62,109 bases of DNA, taken from assembly GCA_031254335.1 (NCBI GenBank), contig JAIRUP010000005.1, positions 32,001 through 94,109 on the forward strand, read 5' to 3'. The notes beneath the pieces are model-generated. The model ran no database searches. It was not told where the DNA came from and saw nothing but the letters and a program-made list of their open reading frames with translations. Origin of the DNA: Rickettsiales bacterium. GTDB taxonomy: Bacteria; Pseudomonadota; Alphaproteobacteria; Rs-D84. Below, piece by piece: positions 2,461 to 42,884 of the stretch (positions are counted from its first letter, which is position 1; each line of letters begins with the position of its first letter). Position numbers and translations under genes: made by a program.

Positions 2461-2669
2461 TTATTACCTGGGTCCTCGGGTCAAGCCCGAGGATGACATA
2501 ATAAATAAACTCAAAAAATATTAGCGAGGTCGCGTTTTCGGCCCAAATCGTCCGAGGACCTAGGGAAGCCGACCCGAGTGTGGACTTGCCGTCCCCGAGT
2601 GGTAGGCTTCCCGAAGCGTCATTCGGCGATTTGGGCCGAAAACGAATTACCGAGATTTTATTTTTTGGC
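2461..2669. repeat. Composite palindromic element, copy A
   Basis: About 209 bp between dnaG and the convergent ftsA-rpe gene. It begins with a small hairpin (stem TCCTCGGG, 2473-2480, with CCCGAGGA, 2486-2493), continues through an AT-rich joint, then a large palindrome. The left arm 2510-2550 and right arm 2627-2669 match imperfectly; their innermost 16 bases (ending CCCAAATCG) are identical in inverted orientation. An inner stem GGGAAGCC/GGCTTCCC lies at 2563-2570 and 2605-2612. Both ends carry a T-run facing outward, so the palindrome could end transcription from both sides. The right arm contains the stop codon of the fusion gene. Copies B (34759) and C (40545) share the layout but little of the stem sequence. 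Confidence 0.75.
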
Positions 2670-4379
2670 ATTTGGTAAGAGTGAAAGAACGGCGGCTTTA
2701 AGGTCCGGGGCATGGGCGAGGTAGCTGCCGGAGACTAGGGCGTCCGCCCCGGCGTCCCAGCATAGTTTCGCAGTGTCTGGATTTATACCCCCGTCCACTA
2801 TGATTTCATATTTCAGCCTTGCTTTCCTTTTTACGGCTTTAAGCCTTCGGATTGTGTCCAGGCTGCCCGGCATGAATTCCTGGCCCCCCGCCCCCGGGGC
2901 CACCGACATCACGACGATTTTATCAAGGTGTTTTATTACGGGCCGAATCAGCGCCAAATCATGCTCGGGCGAAACGGCTATGCCGCATTTCCTTCCCGCC
3001 TGCTTGATGGCGGCGAGGTTCCGGCCGATGTTTTTGGAACCAATCGACAATATGATTGATTCCGCGCCGCCGCGGATGAATCCGCCGATTTCGCCCGCGG
3101 GGTCGCATGCCATGAGATGGGCCGACACTTTCAATTCGGACTTGCTTGTTATATGCCGGACCTCTGCCGCGCCGCCCGCCCGGGCCGGGACGAATTCCCC
3201 GTCCATGAAGTCGTAATGTATGGTCGTGATTCCGGCCGCCGTGAAAGCCCTAAGCGTGTCCGTTCCCATATCCCCGAACGCGAGCGAGCTTGGGTATATC
3301 GGGCATTTCCTTGCCGTTATTCCAAGGAGCAGCTTCCTTATGAACGCCGTCATGGGGTTTTTCCTTTGGGTTTTGGGTCTGCTTCGCATGAGTATGAGCC
3401 GCATGACGCTTTGCATGGCGGCGTCTTTGCCGAGCGTCTTGGCGTCCCGGCCCAGGGCTTCGCCGAATATGTTCCCCGCGCCTTCTATGGCCGCGCCGCC
3501 GCCGAAGAGAATCACTTTGTCCGGGATATGTGCGCCAGCGGCCTCTATGTTCCTTTTGACGGCCCGGGCCAAATCCTGGGTGAAATCGAATACAAGGCTT
3601 TTGTAATCGGCTATGCTTGCCGGGCCGATTGTCTCGAACTGGTCGCCGGGTTTCATGACCGCGCTGGAAATCCGCCTCTTTATTTTCTCGGCGTTTTCAA
3701 GGGAAATGCCGAATCTGTCCGAGAGCGCGCGCGTAAGCTCCGCCTGTCCCGCGCCGATTTCGGCCATATATATTATCCCGTTGCCGGTCGAGATGGAAAA
3801 GCGCGTCGCCGAGGCCCCTATGTTTATAAGCAGCGATTTCCCGGCCAGGGCGTTCATCGCGAACAGGATGTCGATTGCGCCCCGGGGCTCGATATAGCTT
3901 CCGCGGACATGGGACGCCAGCCGGGCCAAATGCGTCCGCGCGGCCAATACCCCGAAGAATTTGGCATGGAGCAGGCGGGCGGGCTCGCCGACCGGATTTT
4001 CGATATTCCGCGCCCTGTCCGTGTCGTATGACACCGGGACGAAATGGATTGCTTGAAGCTCGGGGTTTTTAAGCCCCGGCAGTTTGGATATAAGGCCCCG
4101 TATGTCGGCCTCCGATATTTTTCTTGTCCTGCCGAAATCGGTTTCGCCGGCCATGAGCATGGAATTGTTCCCGCCGAAAAACCCGGCTATATGGGCCTGC
4201 TTGAACCTTGTGCCCGTCTTTTCTTCCAAGGCGTCCAAAAGCGAATCCAAAGCCGCCTTTGGATTGTCCCTCGCGTCCCTTTCCATGATTATGCGCCCGC
4301 CGGCGGTATTTTCGCAAGCGGCGCGGATTTTTCGGTTTCCTATGTATAGCGCAAGAAGATATTCGCCCGTATAATTCAT
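2658..4379 (-). CDS. FtsA - ribulose-phosphate 3-epimerase fusion
   Basis: One uninterrupted frame of 573 codons joins two normally separate proteins. Residues 1-340 resemble a divergent FtsA, the actin-like membrane anchor of the division ring: the nucleotide-binding motifs are present but altered (INIGAS near 186, LFGGGAAIEG near 291). Residues 341-357 form a basic amphipathic stretch like the FtsA membrane-targeting helix. Residues 358-573 are a complete Rpe TIM barrel of the pentose phosphate pathway (HYDFMDGEFVP, SAHLMA, MSVAPGAGGQ, VDGGI, GADALVSGS). The FtsA identity is supported by ftsQ immediately upstream with a 4-bp overlap. An ATG at 3353, with AAAGGA about 8 nt before it, could also start a free Rpe from residue 343. 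No ftsZ follows. Confidence 0.8.
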   Translation of the reverse strand: MNYTGEYLLALYIGNRKIRAACENTAGGRIIMERDARDNPKAALDSLLDALEEKTGTRFKQAHIAGFFGGNNSMLMAGETDFGRTRKISEADIRGLISKLPGLKNPELQAIHFVPVSYDTDRARNIENPVGEPARLLHAKFFGVLAARTHLARLASHVRGSYIEPRGAIDILFAMNALAGKSLLINIGASATRFSISTGNGIIYMAEIGAGQAELTRALSDRFGISLENAEKIKRRISSAVMKPGDQFETIGPASIADYKSLVFDFTQDLARAVKRNIEAAGAHIPDKVILFGGGAAIEGAGNIFGEALGRDAKTLGKDAAMQSVMRLILMRSRPKTQRKNPMTAFIRKLLLGITARKCPIYPSSLAFGDMGTDTLRAFTAAGITTIHYDFMDGEFVPARAGGAAEVRHITSKSELKVSAHLMACDPAGEIGGFIRGGAESIILSIGSKNIGRNLAAIKQAGRKCGIAVSPEHDLALIRPVIKHLDKIVVMSVAPGAGGQEFMPGSLDTIRRLKAVKRKARLKYEIIVDGGINPDTAKLCWDAGADALVSGSYLAHAPDLKAAVLSLLPNAKK

Positions 4380-5062
4380 TGTTTGACCAGGATTCGCGCG
4401 GGGTCCCTAAGGTCGATTAGGGCCGCCTTCTTGTCCATGACCCCGAGGCTGTCAAGCCGGGCGAGCGCGGCCGCCAAATCCCCCTCGGGCAGCATGATTT
4501 TCGCGCCGCTTTTGGAGTATATGTTCCATCTGCGGCCCTCGACCTGCTCGATTGTCTTCATGCGCCGCCTGACATCCGGGAACTTGTTCAGGACTTTTAT
4601 GACGCCCGCCGGGTCTTTCGGCTTGCCGCCCGAGAATACGACGCTTCCCTGCGGGACCCTGTCTATCCTTTTTTCCATGACGCCGCCGCTTGCGGACAAT
4701 GGATAATGCTCTTTGCCGTCGAACCAGACGGCGACCGCCGCCTTTTCCGATATTATGACATACATCTTGCCGCCCGGCTCCCTTTTTATGGCCGCGTCGG
4801 AAATTTCGGGGATTTTAAGAAGGTTGGCCCTCATCTCTTTTATATTGTATTCGTAGATGGGCGAATTGGCCGAAACCCCGAGCGCGACCATAATCTTGGA
4901 CTGCGGGACGAGTTTCGGAGCGGGGACGATTAGGACCTGTTTTATCGCGCTGGCCCCGTCTATGCCGGAAAAAGTCGTAATCGTGCGCGCCCCGGCGTAA
5001 AGGCCCAGGATTAGGACGAGAAAAGCCGCCGCCCAGAAGAGGATTTTATTGTCTTTGTTCAT
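4376..5062 (-). CDS. ftsQ: Cell division protein FtsQ
   Basis: Bitopic inner-membrane protein linking the early and late parts of the divisome. The 228-residue product has a short cytoplasmic N-terminus, one membrane segment (about residues 8-26), a POTRA-like domain and a beta domain, and is of usual length for the family. Identification rests on this architecture and on the position directly before the ftsA-like gene (ATGA overlap 4376-4379). The start lies only six bases downstream of a TATAAT box, so the mRNA may be leaderless; it could also be read through from the glycosyltransferase gene upstream. Confidence 0.78.
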   Translation of the reverse strand: MNKDNKILFWAAAFLVLILGLYAGARTITTFSGIDGASAIKQVLIVPAPKLVPQSKIMVALGVSANSPIYEYNIKEMRANLLKIPEISDAAIKREPGGKMYVIISEKAAVAVWFDGKEHYPLSASGGVMEKRIDRVPQGSVVFSGGKPKDPAGVIKVLNKFPDVRRRMKTIEQVEGRRWNIYSKSGAKIMLPEGDLAAALARLDSLGVMDKKAALIDLRDPARILVKQ

Positions 5063-6017: not shown

Positions 6018-6398
6018 TTATGAAGCCCTTAGTAGATAACCTTTGCCGAACATGCACCTGCGGTATGTTCCGACGGTGTTGCTGGACATGTTGCTTGGAG
6101 CAGACAGCAGCACGCGCTGGCCGACCCCTTGAAATTCGTTGGATTGGAATGTGACCCAAAGGCCGTCCCATTCGGGAAGGGTCTGGACCTGTTCCGGCAT
6201 CAATATCTGCGAGAAGCGGCTTCTCGGCTGGTTTATGTCGCGCTTGATTCCCAGGCACGCCTTGTGGTCCTTCACGAACTGGCTTTGCGTAACCGTTTCG
6301 TTCTCCCAGTGGAGCACGGTCGCGTTGTCCAGGTCCCCGCGGTTGGGCGCGGAGCATGCGAACAATAGGGCCGGCAAAAATAGGAACGCTTTGCTCAT
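6018..6398 (-). CDS. Putative lipoprotein, unknown function
   Basis: A 126-residue protein with a hydrophobic signal sequence ending in a lipobox (LLFAC), so it is probably lipid-modified at Cys14 or close to it. I do not recognise the mature part, which has two further cysteines, in CLG and RCMFG. It ends one base before the start region of the glycosyltransferase gene on the same strand. A near-consensus promoter (TTGCCA-17-TATAAT) lies so close that its ATG would be at the transcription start. Confidence 0.65.
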   Translation of the reverse strand: MSKAFLFLPALLFACSAPNRGDLDNATVLHWENETVTQSQFVKDHKACLGIKRDINQPRSRFSQILMPEQVQTLPEWDGLWVTFQSNEFQGVGQRVLLSAPSNMSSNTVGTYRRCMFGKGYLLRAS

Positions 6399-29662: not shown

Positions 29663-31258
29663 ATGTTCGAGGCCGGGGCGGATATAGCGGCGGGGATTGG
29701 AAATCGTGCGGCGGCCCGCCCGCCCCGGCTGCTTGCCGCGCTTTGGGTTCTGCTTTTCCTTTTCGCGTATTCTTCGCTTAGGCTCGCCATGCTGGGGCTG
29801 GAAGATTCCAAGACAAGGCGCGGGGCCGCCGGCGCGAGCGAATGGACCGCGCGCGCGGACATAACCGACCGCTCGGGAGAGCTTCTCGCGTCAAGCGTCG
29901 CCGGATTCAAAATCAAAATCTATCCGGGCAAAATGCCGCCGACCTGGGAAAGTGCGGAAATTCTTATGGAAATCGACCCGTCCCTGGATAGCGACGCCAT
30001 AAACGGCGTAATGCTGTCGAGCAAGGGCGGCGTTTATCTCGGCGGATGCCGCCCTCTGCCCGATTACGCCGATATGCTTGCCGCGGCGCGGAAATTCCGC
30101 CGCGACTGGAATGAAATCGAGGAATGCCGCATAAGGCGGTATGCCAAGGGCCGCGCGGTTTCCCATATAACGGGCTTTGTCGACGCATACGGCGACGGCG
30201 CGGCCGGGGTTGAAAAATTCCTTGATAAGAAACTTAAAGGCGGCGAGCCCGCCGTCCTGTCCTTGGACTTCCGCGCCCAGGCCATAATGCGCCGCGAATT
30301 GGAGCAGGCGAAAGCCGCCCACGGCGCGAAGCTCGCGGCTGGAATCCTGATGGATTCCCTGAACGGCGAAATAATCGCGGCGGTGCAGCTCCCGGACTTT
30401 GACCCCGAAAGCGCGGGAAGCGCATGGGACGATTCCAAGACATTCTGGCCCGCGCAGGGGACTTACGAGATGGGAAGCATTTTCAAGATATTCAACACCG
30501 CGCTTGCTTTGGAAAGCGGCCTGTCCCGGACGAAAAAATACGATGTGTCCAAGCCATTCGGAACCATACGCGACAAGGGCGCGTCGAAAAACCGCCCGGA
30601 CGCCATGACCATCGATGAAATCATGCTGCATTCGTCGAACATCGGCTCGGCTAAAATCGCATTGTCCCTGCCAAGCGGCGCGCAGGCGGAATTCTTCAAG
30701 AAAATCGGCCTTCATTCGCCTTTGGAAATAGATGGTATGGGCAAGACGCGCGCCAACGCGGCGCGCAAAAACCCCCAGGACATAGAAATCGCCACCATGG
30801 CTTACGGCCACGGCATAGCGGTTTCCATGATGAACCTAATCGCGGCCGTGAATGCTGTTGCGAACGGCGGGATATGGGTCGCGCCGCGCCTGACGAAAAT
30901 ACCCGACGGCGCGGAAGTCTCGGGCCGCCGCGTGGTTTCCATCGAAACTTCCAAGCGCGTCCGGGAAATCATGTTCCGGGTGTCGGAAGAAACCACGGGG
31001 CGGCTTGCGCGCATATCGGGAATCAATATCGGAAGCAAGACCGGAACCGCCGAAAAAAGGGACGGCAAAGGCTATTCGGCGTATCGGAACTTCAATACAT
31101 TCGTCGCGGTCTTCCCAATCGAAAGCCCGCGCTATATAATGCTTGTGGCTTTGGACGAGCCTGACGCCGTCCCCGGGGTTTCGCGCACCGCGGCGCACAA
31201 TGTGGTCCCCATGACGGGCCGGATTCTTGAACAAACCGTGTCCCTGCTGCTTAAATAA
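29663..31258 (+). CDS. ftsI: Penicillin-binding protein FtsI (PBP3)
   Basis: Septal peptidoglycan transpeptidase. The 531-residue product has a cytoplasmic N-terminus, one membrane anchor (about 24-42), a pedestal domain and a transpeptidase domain with SIFK (near 271), SSN (near 324) and KTG (near 457). These three motifs are intact and correctly spaced. The neighbouring FtsL-like protein fits a division role rather than PBP2 of elongation. Confidence 0.9.
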   Translation: MFEAGADIAAGIGNRAAARPPRLLAALWVLLFLFAYSSLRLAMLGLEDSKTRRGAAGASEWTARADITDRSGELLASSVAGFKIKIYPGKMPPTWESAEILMEIDPSLDSDAINGVMLSSKGGVYLGGCRPLPDYADMLAAARKFRRDWNEIEECRIRRYAKGRAVSHITGFVDAYGDGAAGVEKFLDKKLKGGEPAVLSLDFRAQAIMRRELEQAKAAHGAKLAAGILMDSLNGEIIAAVQLPDFDPESAGSAWDDSKTFWPAQGTYEMGSIFKIFNTALALESGLSRTKKYDVSKPFGTIRDKGASKNRPDAMTIDEIMLHSSNIGSAKIALSLPSGAQAEFFKKIGLHSPLEIDGMGKTRANAARKNPQDIEIATMAYGHGIAVSMMNLIAAVNAVANGGIWVAPRLTKIPDGAEVSGRRVVSIETSKRVREIMFRVSEETTGRLARISGINIGSKTGTAEKRDGKGYSAYRNFNTFVAVFPIESPRYIMLVALDEPDAVPGVSRTAAHNVVPMTGRILEQTVSLLLK

Positions 31259-40757: not shown

Positions 40758-42884
40758 TTACCTGATATGCCTTTTGCCGTTGCCGTCGGGGGCGGTTATT
40801 ATGCCGTCCTTCTCCATGCGCTCTATAAAGGTCGCGGCCTTGTTGTATCCGATGCGAAGGACGCGCTGGACATAGCTTACGGTCGGCTTCTTGTCGCGGA
40901 CGACGGCCTCGACCGCTTGGTTATACAGCGCGCCGTCCTTGTCGTCCTTGGACGGTTTCATGCCAGGTATGACAAGGCTGGCCGCGCCGTCCTCGTCCTC
41001 TCCGATTCCTTCCATGTATTCGGGCTCTCCCTGCTTTTTCAGGAATTCCGCGACGGCGTGCGCCTCGGGGCCGCTGACGAAGGCCGCGTGTATTCTGACC
41101 GGCGCGCGCCCTCCCTCCAAATAAAGCATGTCGCCCGCCGGCAGAAGCTGTTCCGCGCCCTTGGTGGCGAGTATGGTTATGCTGTCCACGGCGGATAGGG
41201 TCTGGAAGCTTATGCGGGTCGGGAAATTCGCCTTGATGACGCCGGTTATGGTTTCGACGCTTGGCCGCTGGGTTGCGATTACGACATGGATTCCGGCGGC
41301 GCGCGCCTTTTGGGCAAGCCTTTGCAGGCAGGCCTCGACTTCCTTGCCGCCCGTCATCATAAGGTCGGCCATCTCGTCTATGATTAGGACAAGGTATGGC
41401 ATGTCGGCCAAATCCATGGGGCGGGTTTCGTATATCACGCCGCCGGTTTCGGAATCGGTGCCGCAGGCGACTTGTTCCGTTAACACCTCGCCGCTGTCGC
41501 GAAGCTCGGCCATCTTTTCGTTATAGGTCGCGAGGTTCTGGACGCCGTGCTTTTTGAGTTTATTGTATCTGTTCTCCATTTCGGCGACGGCCCATTTAAG
41601 GGTCTTCACCGATTTCATCGCGTCCGTCACCACCGGGGTCAAAAGGTGCGGTATGCCGTCCCAAAGGGTGAAGTCGACGCCCTTGGGGTCGATTAGTATC
41701 AGCTTGCATTCGTCGGGCCGGAACTTATACAGGACGGACAGAATGATGGATTGGATGAAGACCGATTTGCCGGTCCCGGTCCTTCCCGCAATCATAAGGT
41801 GCGGCATCCGGGCCAAGTCGGCATAAACGGGCTCGCCCCCTATGCTGACGCCGAGGGCGATTGGAATCCCCATTTTGCTGTCCGTGAATTTGGGGTTCGC
41901 CATAAGGTTTTGGAGGCGCACCGTCTGGCGGGTTATGTTGGGAAGCTCTACCCCGATGACGGTGGTTCCGGCGATATGCGCCATGCGGATATTTTCCGAC
42001 GCCATGACCCGGGTTATGTCTTTGACGGTCTCGGTAATTTTGGTCGTCTTGACGCCCCGTCCCGGCTCGAACTCGTAAAGGGTCACAATCGGCCCGGGCT
42101 TTATTCCGACGACCGAACCCTCGACCCCGAACTCCATCAGCTTGTCTTGGAGCGACACGGCGGCCTGGCGTTGCTGGGGTCCCACGGTCTGTTTCGCGGC
42201 GACCCCTTTTTCCAAAATGGACAGGGGCGGATACTGATAGTTCTTTGCCGGCTTTTTCGCCGATTTTGCCGGTATTTTGCGCGGCTGGCTGCGCGCGGCC
42301 GGGGCGGCTTTCTTGAATATCGATTTGCGCGTTCTCGCCGGGCGGCATTCTTCCGGCGTTTCCGTGAATTCGTCGGCATTGTCCCGGCCGAAAAGATTGA
42401 AAAGCCATGCTATATGCCGGGACTTGATTCCGCCGAGTATCGTGAATATGGCGAGGCTTGCGGCTATCAGCGGCAGGCCGACCAATAGGCCGAGCGCGGG
42501 CATTATGCCGGATATATCGTGCCAGGCGACCGCCCCAAGGACCCCCCCGAACGCCCCCCGGGTGACAAGCCCCGTCCCGAACGACGCCAGCATGACGGAT
42601 AGGGTGCCTAGCAGGACCGGCAGCTGGATGTCGGCGAGGCGGACGGTCTTCCATAAAAGGATATATCCCCCCTTGAAGGCGTAAAGGCAAAGTATGAGCG
42701 CGGCGAAGGTCCCGACCGAGTTCCTGAACGCTTCGGCTATGGACGAGAGGAGGCTGGTGTCGGACACATCGTAGAATGCGAGGGCCAGCACCACGACCAT
42801 GCCGGATACGATTGCGGCGAAACCCAGCGCGGCCGAAAGCGTCCGTTTTATAAAATCCCGAAAAGCGTTGGGTAGGAATTGCAA
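40758..42884 (-). CDS. ftsK: DNA translocase FtsK
   Basis: Pumps chromosome ends through the septum and activates XerCD (xerD is at 50518). The 708-residue protein has four N-terminal membrane helices (about 15-165), a short basic Pro/Lys linker (175-230), the motor with Walker A AGRTGTGKS near 370 and Walker B LVLIIDEMADL, and a C-terminal gamma winged helix (YVQRVLRIGYNKAATFIERME) that reads KOPS. The start is TTG at 42884 with AAAAAGGA upstream. The linker is short compared with E. coli. Confidence 0.94.
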   Translation of the reverse strand: MQFLPNAFRDFIKRTLSAALGFAAIVSGMVVVLALAFYDVSDTSLLSSIAEAFRNSVGTFAALILCLYAFKGGYILLWKTVRLADIQLPVLLGTLSVMLASFGTGLVTRGAFGGVLGAVAWHDISGIMPALGLLVGLPLIAASLAIFTILGGIKSRHIAWLFNLFGRDNADEFTETPEECRPARTRKSIFKKAAPAARSQPRKIPAKSAKKPAKNYQYPPLSILEKGVAAKQTVGPQQRQAAVSLQDKLMEFGVEGSVVGIKPGPIVTLYEFEPGRGVKTTKITETVKDITRVMASENIRMAHIAGTTVIGVELPNITRQTVRLQNLMANPKFTDSKMGIPIALGVSIGGEPVYADLARMPHLMIAGRTGTGKSVFIQSIILSVLYKFRPDECKLILIDPKGVDFTLWDGIPHLLTPVVTDAMKSVKTLKWAVAEMENRYNKLKKHGVQNLATYNEKMAELRDSGEVLTEQVACGTDSETGGVIYETRPMDLADMPYLVLIIDEMADLMMTGGKEVEACLQRLAQKARAAGIHVVIATQRPSVETITGVIKANFPTRISFQTLSAVDSITILATKGAEQLLPAGDMLYLEGGRAPVRIHAAFVSGPEAHAVAEFLKKQGEPEYMEGIGEDEDGAASLVIPGMKPSKDDKDGALYNQAVEAVVRDKKPTVSYVQRVLRIGYNKAATFIERMEKDGIITAPDGNGKRHIR

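Follow-up and report, generated by a model that had tools for sequence, protein, structure and literature searches.

Can a cell division protein and a pentose-phosphate enzyme share a single polypeptide in a bacterium and, if so, what would each half be doing there? The question arises from a 62,109-nucleotide stretch of DNA from a Rickettsiales bacterium (contig JAIRUP010000005.1; hereafter the window), in which an earlier note, made from the sequence alone, described a shortened and divergent FtsA joined in frame to a complete ribulose-phosphate 3-epimerase (Rpe). It suggested that a basic amphipathic helix at the join would hold Rpe at the division site and that an internal ATG could also give free Rpe, and cautioned that the fusion may simply result from loss of a stop codon.

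The fusion gene and its two domains

The locus comprises the following features:

2658..4379, minus strand: FtsA-Rpe fusion gene, a single ATG-to-stop open frame of 573 aa (stop included in the coordinates)
3372..4379, minus strand: FtsA-derived domain, residues 1-336, actin-like fold with 1C/SHS2 insert (Pfam, fold match, dN/dS)
3309..3371, minus strand: linker, residues 337-357, with a predicted basic/amphipathic helix at residues 342-354 (3318-3356; pLDDT, hydrophobic moment)
2661..3308, minus strand: ribulose-phosphate 3-epimerase domain, residues 358-573 (Pfam/NCBIfam, fold match, active-site conservation)
3351..3353, minus strand: internal in-frame ATG (Met343), with AAAGGA at 3362-3367, 8 bases upstream
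4376..5062, minus strand: ftsQ, with FtsQ_DivIB_C and POTRA_1 (Pfam), overlapping the fusion gene by 4 bases

The two halves are read as one uninterrupted frame, as first described, and this frame recurs in the family. Pfam placed FtsA (PF14450) at residues 184-314 (40.3 bits, cut-off 31.8) and Rpe (PF00834) at residues 374-554 (136.9 bits, cut-off 21.1), with SHS2_FTSA at residues 78-141 slightly below its cut-off (24.8 vs 25.4 bits). The N-terminal half is indeed divergent, reaching 46.4 bits against the NCBIfam FtsA equivalog TIGR01174 (cut-off 175.85 bits), and was therefore filed as FtsA-derived rather than as canonical FtsA. It is also shortened, at ~336 aa vs 409-420 aa in most sister-family FtsA. 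For the Rpe half, the NCBIfam subfamily NF004076 was reached (171.2, cut-off 165), and the equivalog TIGR01163 was below cut-off (156.5 vs 212.6).

An AlphaFold2 model built from the window sequence and 19 related fusions consists of two confident domains whose mutual placement is uncertain (mean pLDDT 85.3, pTM 0.56); residues 335-357 have a pLDDT below 50, and a helix is nevertheless assigned at 342-354. In a search of the PDB with the predicted structure, residues 4-336 matched FtsA (7q6g; Z 32.5, 331 of 388 aligned, rmsd 2.8) and residues 358-571 matched Rpe (2fli_E; Z 32.9, 214 aligned, rmsd 1.5). PilM and MreB were rejected as identities of the N-terminal half, given that their fold scores are lower (24.6 and 21.6, respectively, vs 32.5 for FtsA) and that the neighbouring genes are wrong. 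Like FtsA, this half has an actin-like fold with a 1C domain (4-336), an ftsQ neighbour, and a helix predicted with low confidence near its C-terminus; unlike FtsA, it is ~80 residues shorter than most of its sisters, has no FtsZ partner, and is fused to an enzyme at its C-terminus. The other half shares the full TIM barrel and active-site residues of ribulose-phosphate 3-epimerase (PF00834), which bears out its description as complete, and differs from an ordinary epimerase in that an FtsA-derived protein carries it at its C-terminus. Among the 57 rows of the family alignment, which include six repeats of a genome and hence 51 distinct genomes, H388, D393, H421, and D529 are present in every row and D390 in 56; we take two His and two Asp of Rpe to be the catalytic residues.

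Distribution and origin of the fusion

Our first set comprised 60 genomes (own, family, order, and class), 36 of which belong to the GTDB family of the window (hereafter f1). ORF analysis showed the halves joined in an unbroken frame in 34 of the 36 f1 members, in relatives that are ~28-58% identical; the other two are G009, in which the halves end at contig ends, and G026 (72% complete), in which no match was found. A profile built from 17 fusions was then applied to 201 genomes of the order (183 from f1 and 18 others), and matched 175 of the 183 f1 genomes. The eight f1 genomes without a match are G062, G120, G127, G129, G132, G175, G189, and G026, and include G129 although it is 95% complete. 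Among the matches listed, 150 f1 rows (149 genomes, G079 appearing twice) each cover at least 587 of 590 positions, with frames of at least 588 aa. Two profile matches occur in 12 f1 genomes, including G009 with its split locus and G079 with two fusions; the second match in G021 is an Rpe-like gene, 225 aa long, that stands apart from the fusion. No other rpe was found in the window's genome, where the fusion holds the single copy. No split version of ftsA and rpe was seen within f1, so that the check proposed in the earlier note, a look for two genes with a junction stop in relatives, speaks for the fusion inside the family.

Among the 80 loci listed from a wider scan of genome contigs, 19 span both halves and the remainder match the Rpe part, a few of them starting slightly before it; further fusions may exist beyond f1. 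The named contigs carrying the fusion are alphaproteobacterial metagenome-assembled genomes, including Candidatus Enterousia scatequi and Candidatus Enterousia onthequi, and in the Rpe tree the former falls together with three g10 genomes (100/97). We infer that f1 is the Rs-D84/Candidatus Enterousia family. In GTDB terms, Enterousia has been assigned to Rs-D84 at both order and family level, a group whose genomes measure about 1 Mb or less (PMC12306168).

These distributions bear directly on whether the join is a sequencing, assembly, or frameshift artefact, or a recent stop loss in one strain. Such an error was the stated worry of the earlier note, and the adjacency of the ancestral genes would lend it some support; however, the same frame is found in 34 of 36 divergent f1 genomes, including the single-contig G035, the frames are continuous with both halves under purifying selection, and 175 of 183 genomes match the profile, leaving an artefact scarcely conceivable. 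The fusion is real, old, of single origin, and fixed in a reduced-genome alphaproteobacterial family of gut bacteria.

In other members of the order, ftsA and rpe are separate genes. They are adjacent in f2, f3, and f6, overlapping by ~1 base in f3 and f6 and separated by ~16 bases in f2, and in f4 an ABC-transporter-type gene lies between them. In the tree, Rpe of f1 makes up a single clade (100/99, 29 rows). Gene order outside f1 shows separate, adjacent genes as the apparent ancestral state, and the simplest history would have an ftsQ-ftsA-rpe cluster undergo a single fusion; we infer that an indel or read-through joined the neighbouring, nearly overlapping ftsA and rpe of this ancestral cluster. 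Loss of a stop codon is rejected as an artefact, since the fusion is family-wide, and the joining of adjacent, overlapping genes is its likely origin.

A separate open frame was noted in genome G049 of f4 (L044:1546-4170, minus strand), where Rpe ends a frame of 874 aa whose first ~660 residues have no Pfam match; it may be a shadow frame or represent a second Rpe fusion of a different kind.

FtsZ and the retained division genes

FtsZ is undetectable throughout f1, near-complete genomes included. Tubulin/FtsZ (PF00091) was found in 0 of 36 f1 genomes vs 23 of 24 other genomes in the same search, and FtsZ (TIGR00065) in 0 of 183 f1 genomes vs all 18 genomes of the order outside f1 (16 above cut-off, G041 slightly below, and G039 of f5 very weak at 31.2 bits). 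FtsZ-negative f1 genomes include G035 (one contig, 99% complete) and G012 (100% complete). With no FtsZ found anywhere in the family, Rpe cannot be pictured as anchored at a Z-ring.

The weak match in G039 is a 408-aa protein (L142:2019-3245, minus strand; 31 bits) in which no glycine-rich tubulin signature was seen by eye, and may be an FtsZ that has decayed or been repurposed in f5.

Direct inspection of the window's genome revealed FtsQ, an FtsI-like protein, FtsK, FtsW, MrdA, RodA, and MreB, with the FtsI-like protein and FtsK located in the window as follows:

29663..31258, plus strand: FtsI-like transpeptidase, no NCBIfam cut-off reached
40758..42884, minus strand: FtsK-type DNA translocase, retained in an FtsZ-less genome

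Across the 36 f1 genomes, FtsK is strong in 32, two or more SEDS matches occur in 31, and transpeptidases are present in all. MreB is strong and full-length or near full-length in 31, and weak or undetected in G001, G003, G014, G021, and G031. Because a full-strength match is missing from a few good assemblies (e.g. G021, 99% complete), MreB is not a universal stand-in for FtsZ. G021 and G003 (96% complete) have no strong MreB match and FtsZ is absent too; if this is real, their cells would be without both cytoskeletal proteins.

Strong MipZ matches were obtained in 9 of 11 f4, 1 of 2 f2, and 3 of 6 same-class genomes, and in 0 of 36 f1 genomes. Matches of this strength were likewise lacking in f5 and in two families with clear FtsZ, f3 and f6; co-loss of MipZ as a partner of FtsZ is therefore no more than consistent with the data.

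Other FtsZ-less lineages offer a comparison. Chlamydiota, Planctomycetota, and Wolbachia supergroup J, which have no ftsZ, still carry ftsK along with further genes for division or peptidoglycan (PMC10591338, PMC12283558), ftsA is listed as absent along with ftsZ in Chlamydia and Wolbachia supergroup J (PMC10591338), and ftsZ, ftsB, ftsA, and alr are lost in PVC groups, with few exceptions for ftsA and alr (PMC12283558). Unlike these groups, f1 keeps its FtsA part in nearly all members, and keeps it fused to an enzyme.

State of the two halves and their possible roles

While FtsZ is gone, the FtsA-derived half remains under selection. Among the f1 pairs listed, its dN/dS is 0.04-0.16, with synonymous sites near saturation in many pairs, and this rules out a decaying remnant, although constraint is weaker in the window's genus (0.26-0.30, and 0.30 between the window and its nearest relative), which has also lost both nucleotide-site Asp. 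These two Asp, presumably ATP-site residues of the phosphate 1 and phosphate 2 motifs, are conserved in 53 of the 57 rows and are both replaced in the remaining four, which are the four rows of the window's genus (Tyr12, and Asn or His186; Asn186 in the window), which makes an ATP-dependent FtsA polymer doubtful there. Against PDB FtsA, the f1 FtsA-half profile gave 1.5e-18 and the sister-family profile 2.6e-87, and the two profiles align with each other over 316 columns (E 5e-40). The equivalent of E. coli R300, which we take to be the FtsZ-peptide-binding Arg, is absent among the 25 f1 motif variants listed; its loss is not diagnostic of FtsZ loss, since FtsZ-bearing f4 is also without it. 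In f1, FtsA has outlived FtsZ and has diverged strongly. Retained genes and gene order indicate that the FtsA half most likely still serves the septal machinery via FtsQ, FtsW, and FtsI.

The C-terminal basic amphipathic stretch of FtsA is a membrane-targeting helix, and sister-family FtsA mostly end in basic, amphipathic-looking stretches (e.g. KVKKWIDDNF). For the fusions, 53 junction sequences were reduced to 48 distinct ones, whose mean hydrophobic moment peaks at 100-110 degrees, the helical period; this family mean differed from shuffled sequence with p 0.026 when the helix window was shuffled and p 0.16 when the whole region was. In single sequences, including that of the window, linker amphipathicity is mostly not significant, the helix is absent in genus g9 (L031, L033, L034, L035), and junction identity is 0.30-0.65 among the pairs listed, the linker being poorly conserved. 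The proposed basic amphipathic helix thus stands as a family tendency, with a low-confidence predicted helix at 342-354, and not as a significant property of the window sequence itself. The linker helix is a possible remnant of the FtsA membrane anchor, and anchoring of the protein to the membrane through it would be plausible.

As for the suggested internal start, the ATG at 3353 and its AAAGGA are present, but the combination is not conserved outside the window's genus. An ATG with a Shine-Dalgarno-like motif occurs in 3 of 57 junctions (the window, L003, and L004, all of that genus) vs 4.7% of 493 control windows, and 16 of the 57 junctions have no ATG at all, so that a conserved internal start was rejected. 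Production of free Rpe from this ATG, which would supply the cell with soluble enzyme in addition to the fusion and for which the window and its two congeners speak, is very unlikely in view of these counts.

Constraint on the Rpe half is strong, with dN/dS of 0.04-0.11 where computable among the f1 pairs listed (window genus apart) and 0.19 for the window against its nearest relative. The window's genome has transketolase, as do 170 of 183 f1 genomes, and a non-oxidative pentose phosphate pathway without transaldolase has been reported for most Rs-D84 genomes (PMC12306168); together, these suggest that Rpe likely performs its ordinary metabolic role. Four f1 genomes that are at least 90% complete (G147, G159, G081, and G012; loci L143-L146) have no transketolase match and nevertheless keep the fusion with an intact Rpe site, which is a poor fit to a purely metabolic passenger and leaves room for another role.

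Taken together, we consider it reasonably probable that the fusion is a bifunctional, membrane-associated protein, in which Rpe would epimerise as usual and the FtsA-derived part would serve an FtsZ-free divisome. With FtsZ gone, the FtsA part would no longer tether a Z-ring; it would stay membrane-associated through the basic helix of the linker and may act as an FtsZ-free scaffold for FtsQ, FtsW, and FtsI, perhaps with MreB. Rpe, the sole copy in the window's genome, would carry out normal ribulose-5-P/xylulose-5-P epimerisation as a passenger near the membrane. Coupling of metabolism to division, as raised in the earlier note, is possible, if unsupported, and we make no claim that division is under the control of the enzyme.

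Neutral compaction is a serious contender, if short of probable: adjacent genes would have fused once and never re-split, leaving two independent domains and a join without consequence for either. Genes are tightly packed in the order, the ~1 base overlap of ftsA and rpe already exists in f6 and f3, the linker is flexible as well as poorly conserved, and neither an internal start nor any other coupling signal was found. Retention in 175 of 183 genomes with no split version in f1 argues against it, although weakly, as a single origin and irreversibility could explain the same pattern.

If, alternatively, Rpe were an oligomerisation or metabolite-sensing module, self-assembly of the barrel would take over from FtsZ by clustering the FtsA part at the membrane, and pentose phosphates might gate the process. 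The absence of FtsZ while the FtsA part is under purifying selection would fit, as would the intact Rpe site of the four genomes without detectable transketolase, and the many chains in Rpe crystals (12 in 2fli and 12 in 7b1w) provide a hint only, since chain counts are not oligomeric states. Against such a module, which we regard as unlikely, stands the retention of transketolase by 170 of 183 genomes, in keeping with the needs of ordinary metabolism. An extended form, in which the FtsA-Rpe hybrid would be the only division-specific cytoskeletal element of a tubulin-free divisome, with Rpe self-assembly giving FtsZ-like clustering and the pentose-phosphate site setting the engagement of FtsA with FtsQ, FtsW, and FtsI, is decidedly unlikely.

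FtsA has been defined by its work with FtsZ, and a large, well-sampled FtsZ-less family with a selected FtsA domain allows one to ask what FtsA does without it, and how reduced-genome cells with FtsW and FtsI place their septum. Metabolic enzymes have been implicated in division elsewhere, as with UgtP in Bacillus and, reportedly, Ga5DH in Streptococcus suis. The idea of an enzyme at the division machinery is common to these cases, but UgtP and Ga5DH are separate proteins, whereas f1 has a covalent fusion and no FtsZ was found; the covalent tie to a pentose-phosphate epimerase offers a natural way of testing whether metabolism and division are linked. Our searches of a literature library found no work linking FtsA, ribulose-phosphate 3-epimerase, and fusion, none linking Enterousia and ftsZ, and one that mentions Rs-D84 and cell division a single time each; in the text of PMC12306168 on Rs-D84, the words FtsZ, FtsA, and division are all absent.

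Two further observations were made around the locus. A small lipoprotein-like protein without a Pfam match (window 6018-6398, minus strand; L065:6884-7264, plus strand) has the motif DNAT.L.WENE.VT in common between distant genera, in both cases near the ftsQ cluster. Between dnaG and the fusion gene, positions 2534-2644 form a long, near-perfect inverted repeat, the minus strand of which folds at -73.8 kcal/mol (z -8.15). Rfam returned no family at threshold anywhere in the window and the repeat arm has no other occurrence there; candidate readings are a terminator, a small mobile element, or a structured RNA.
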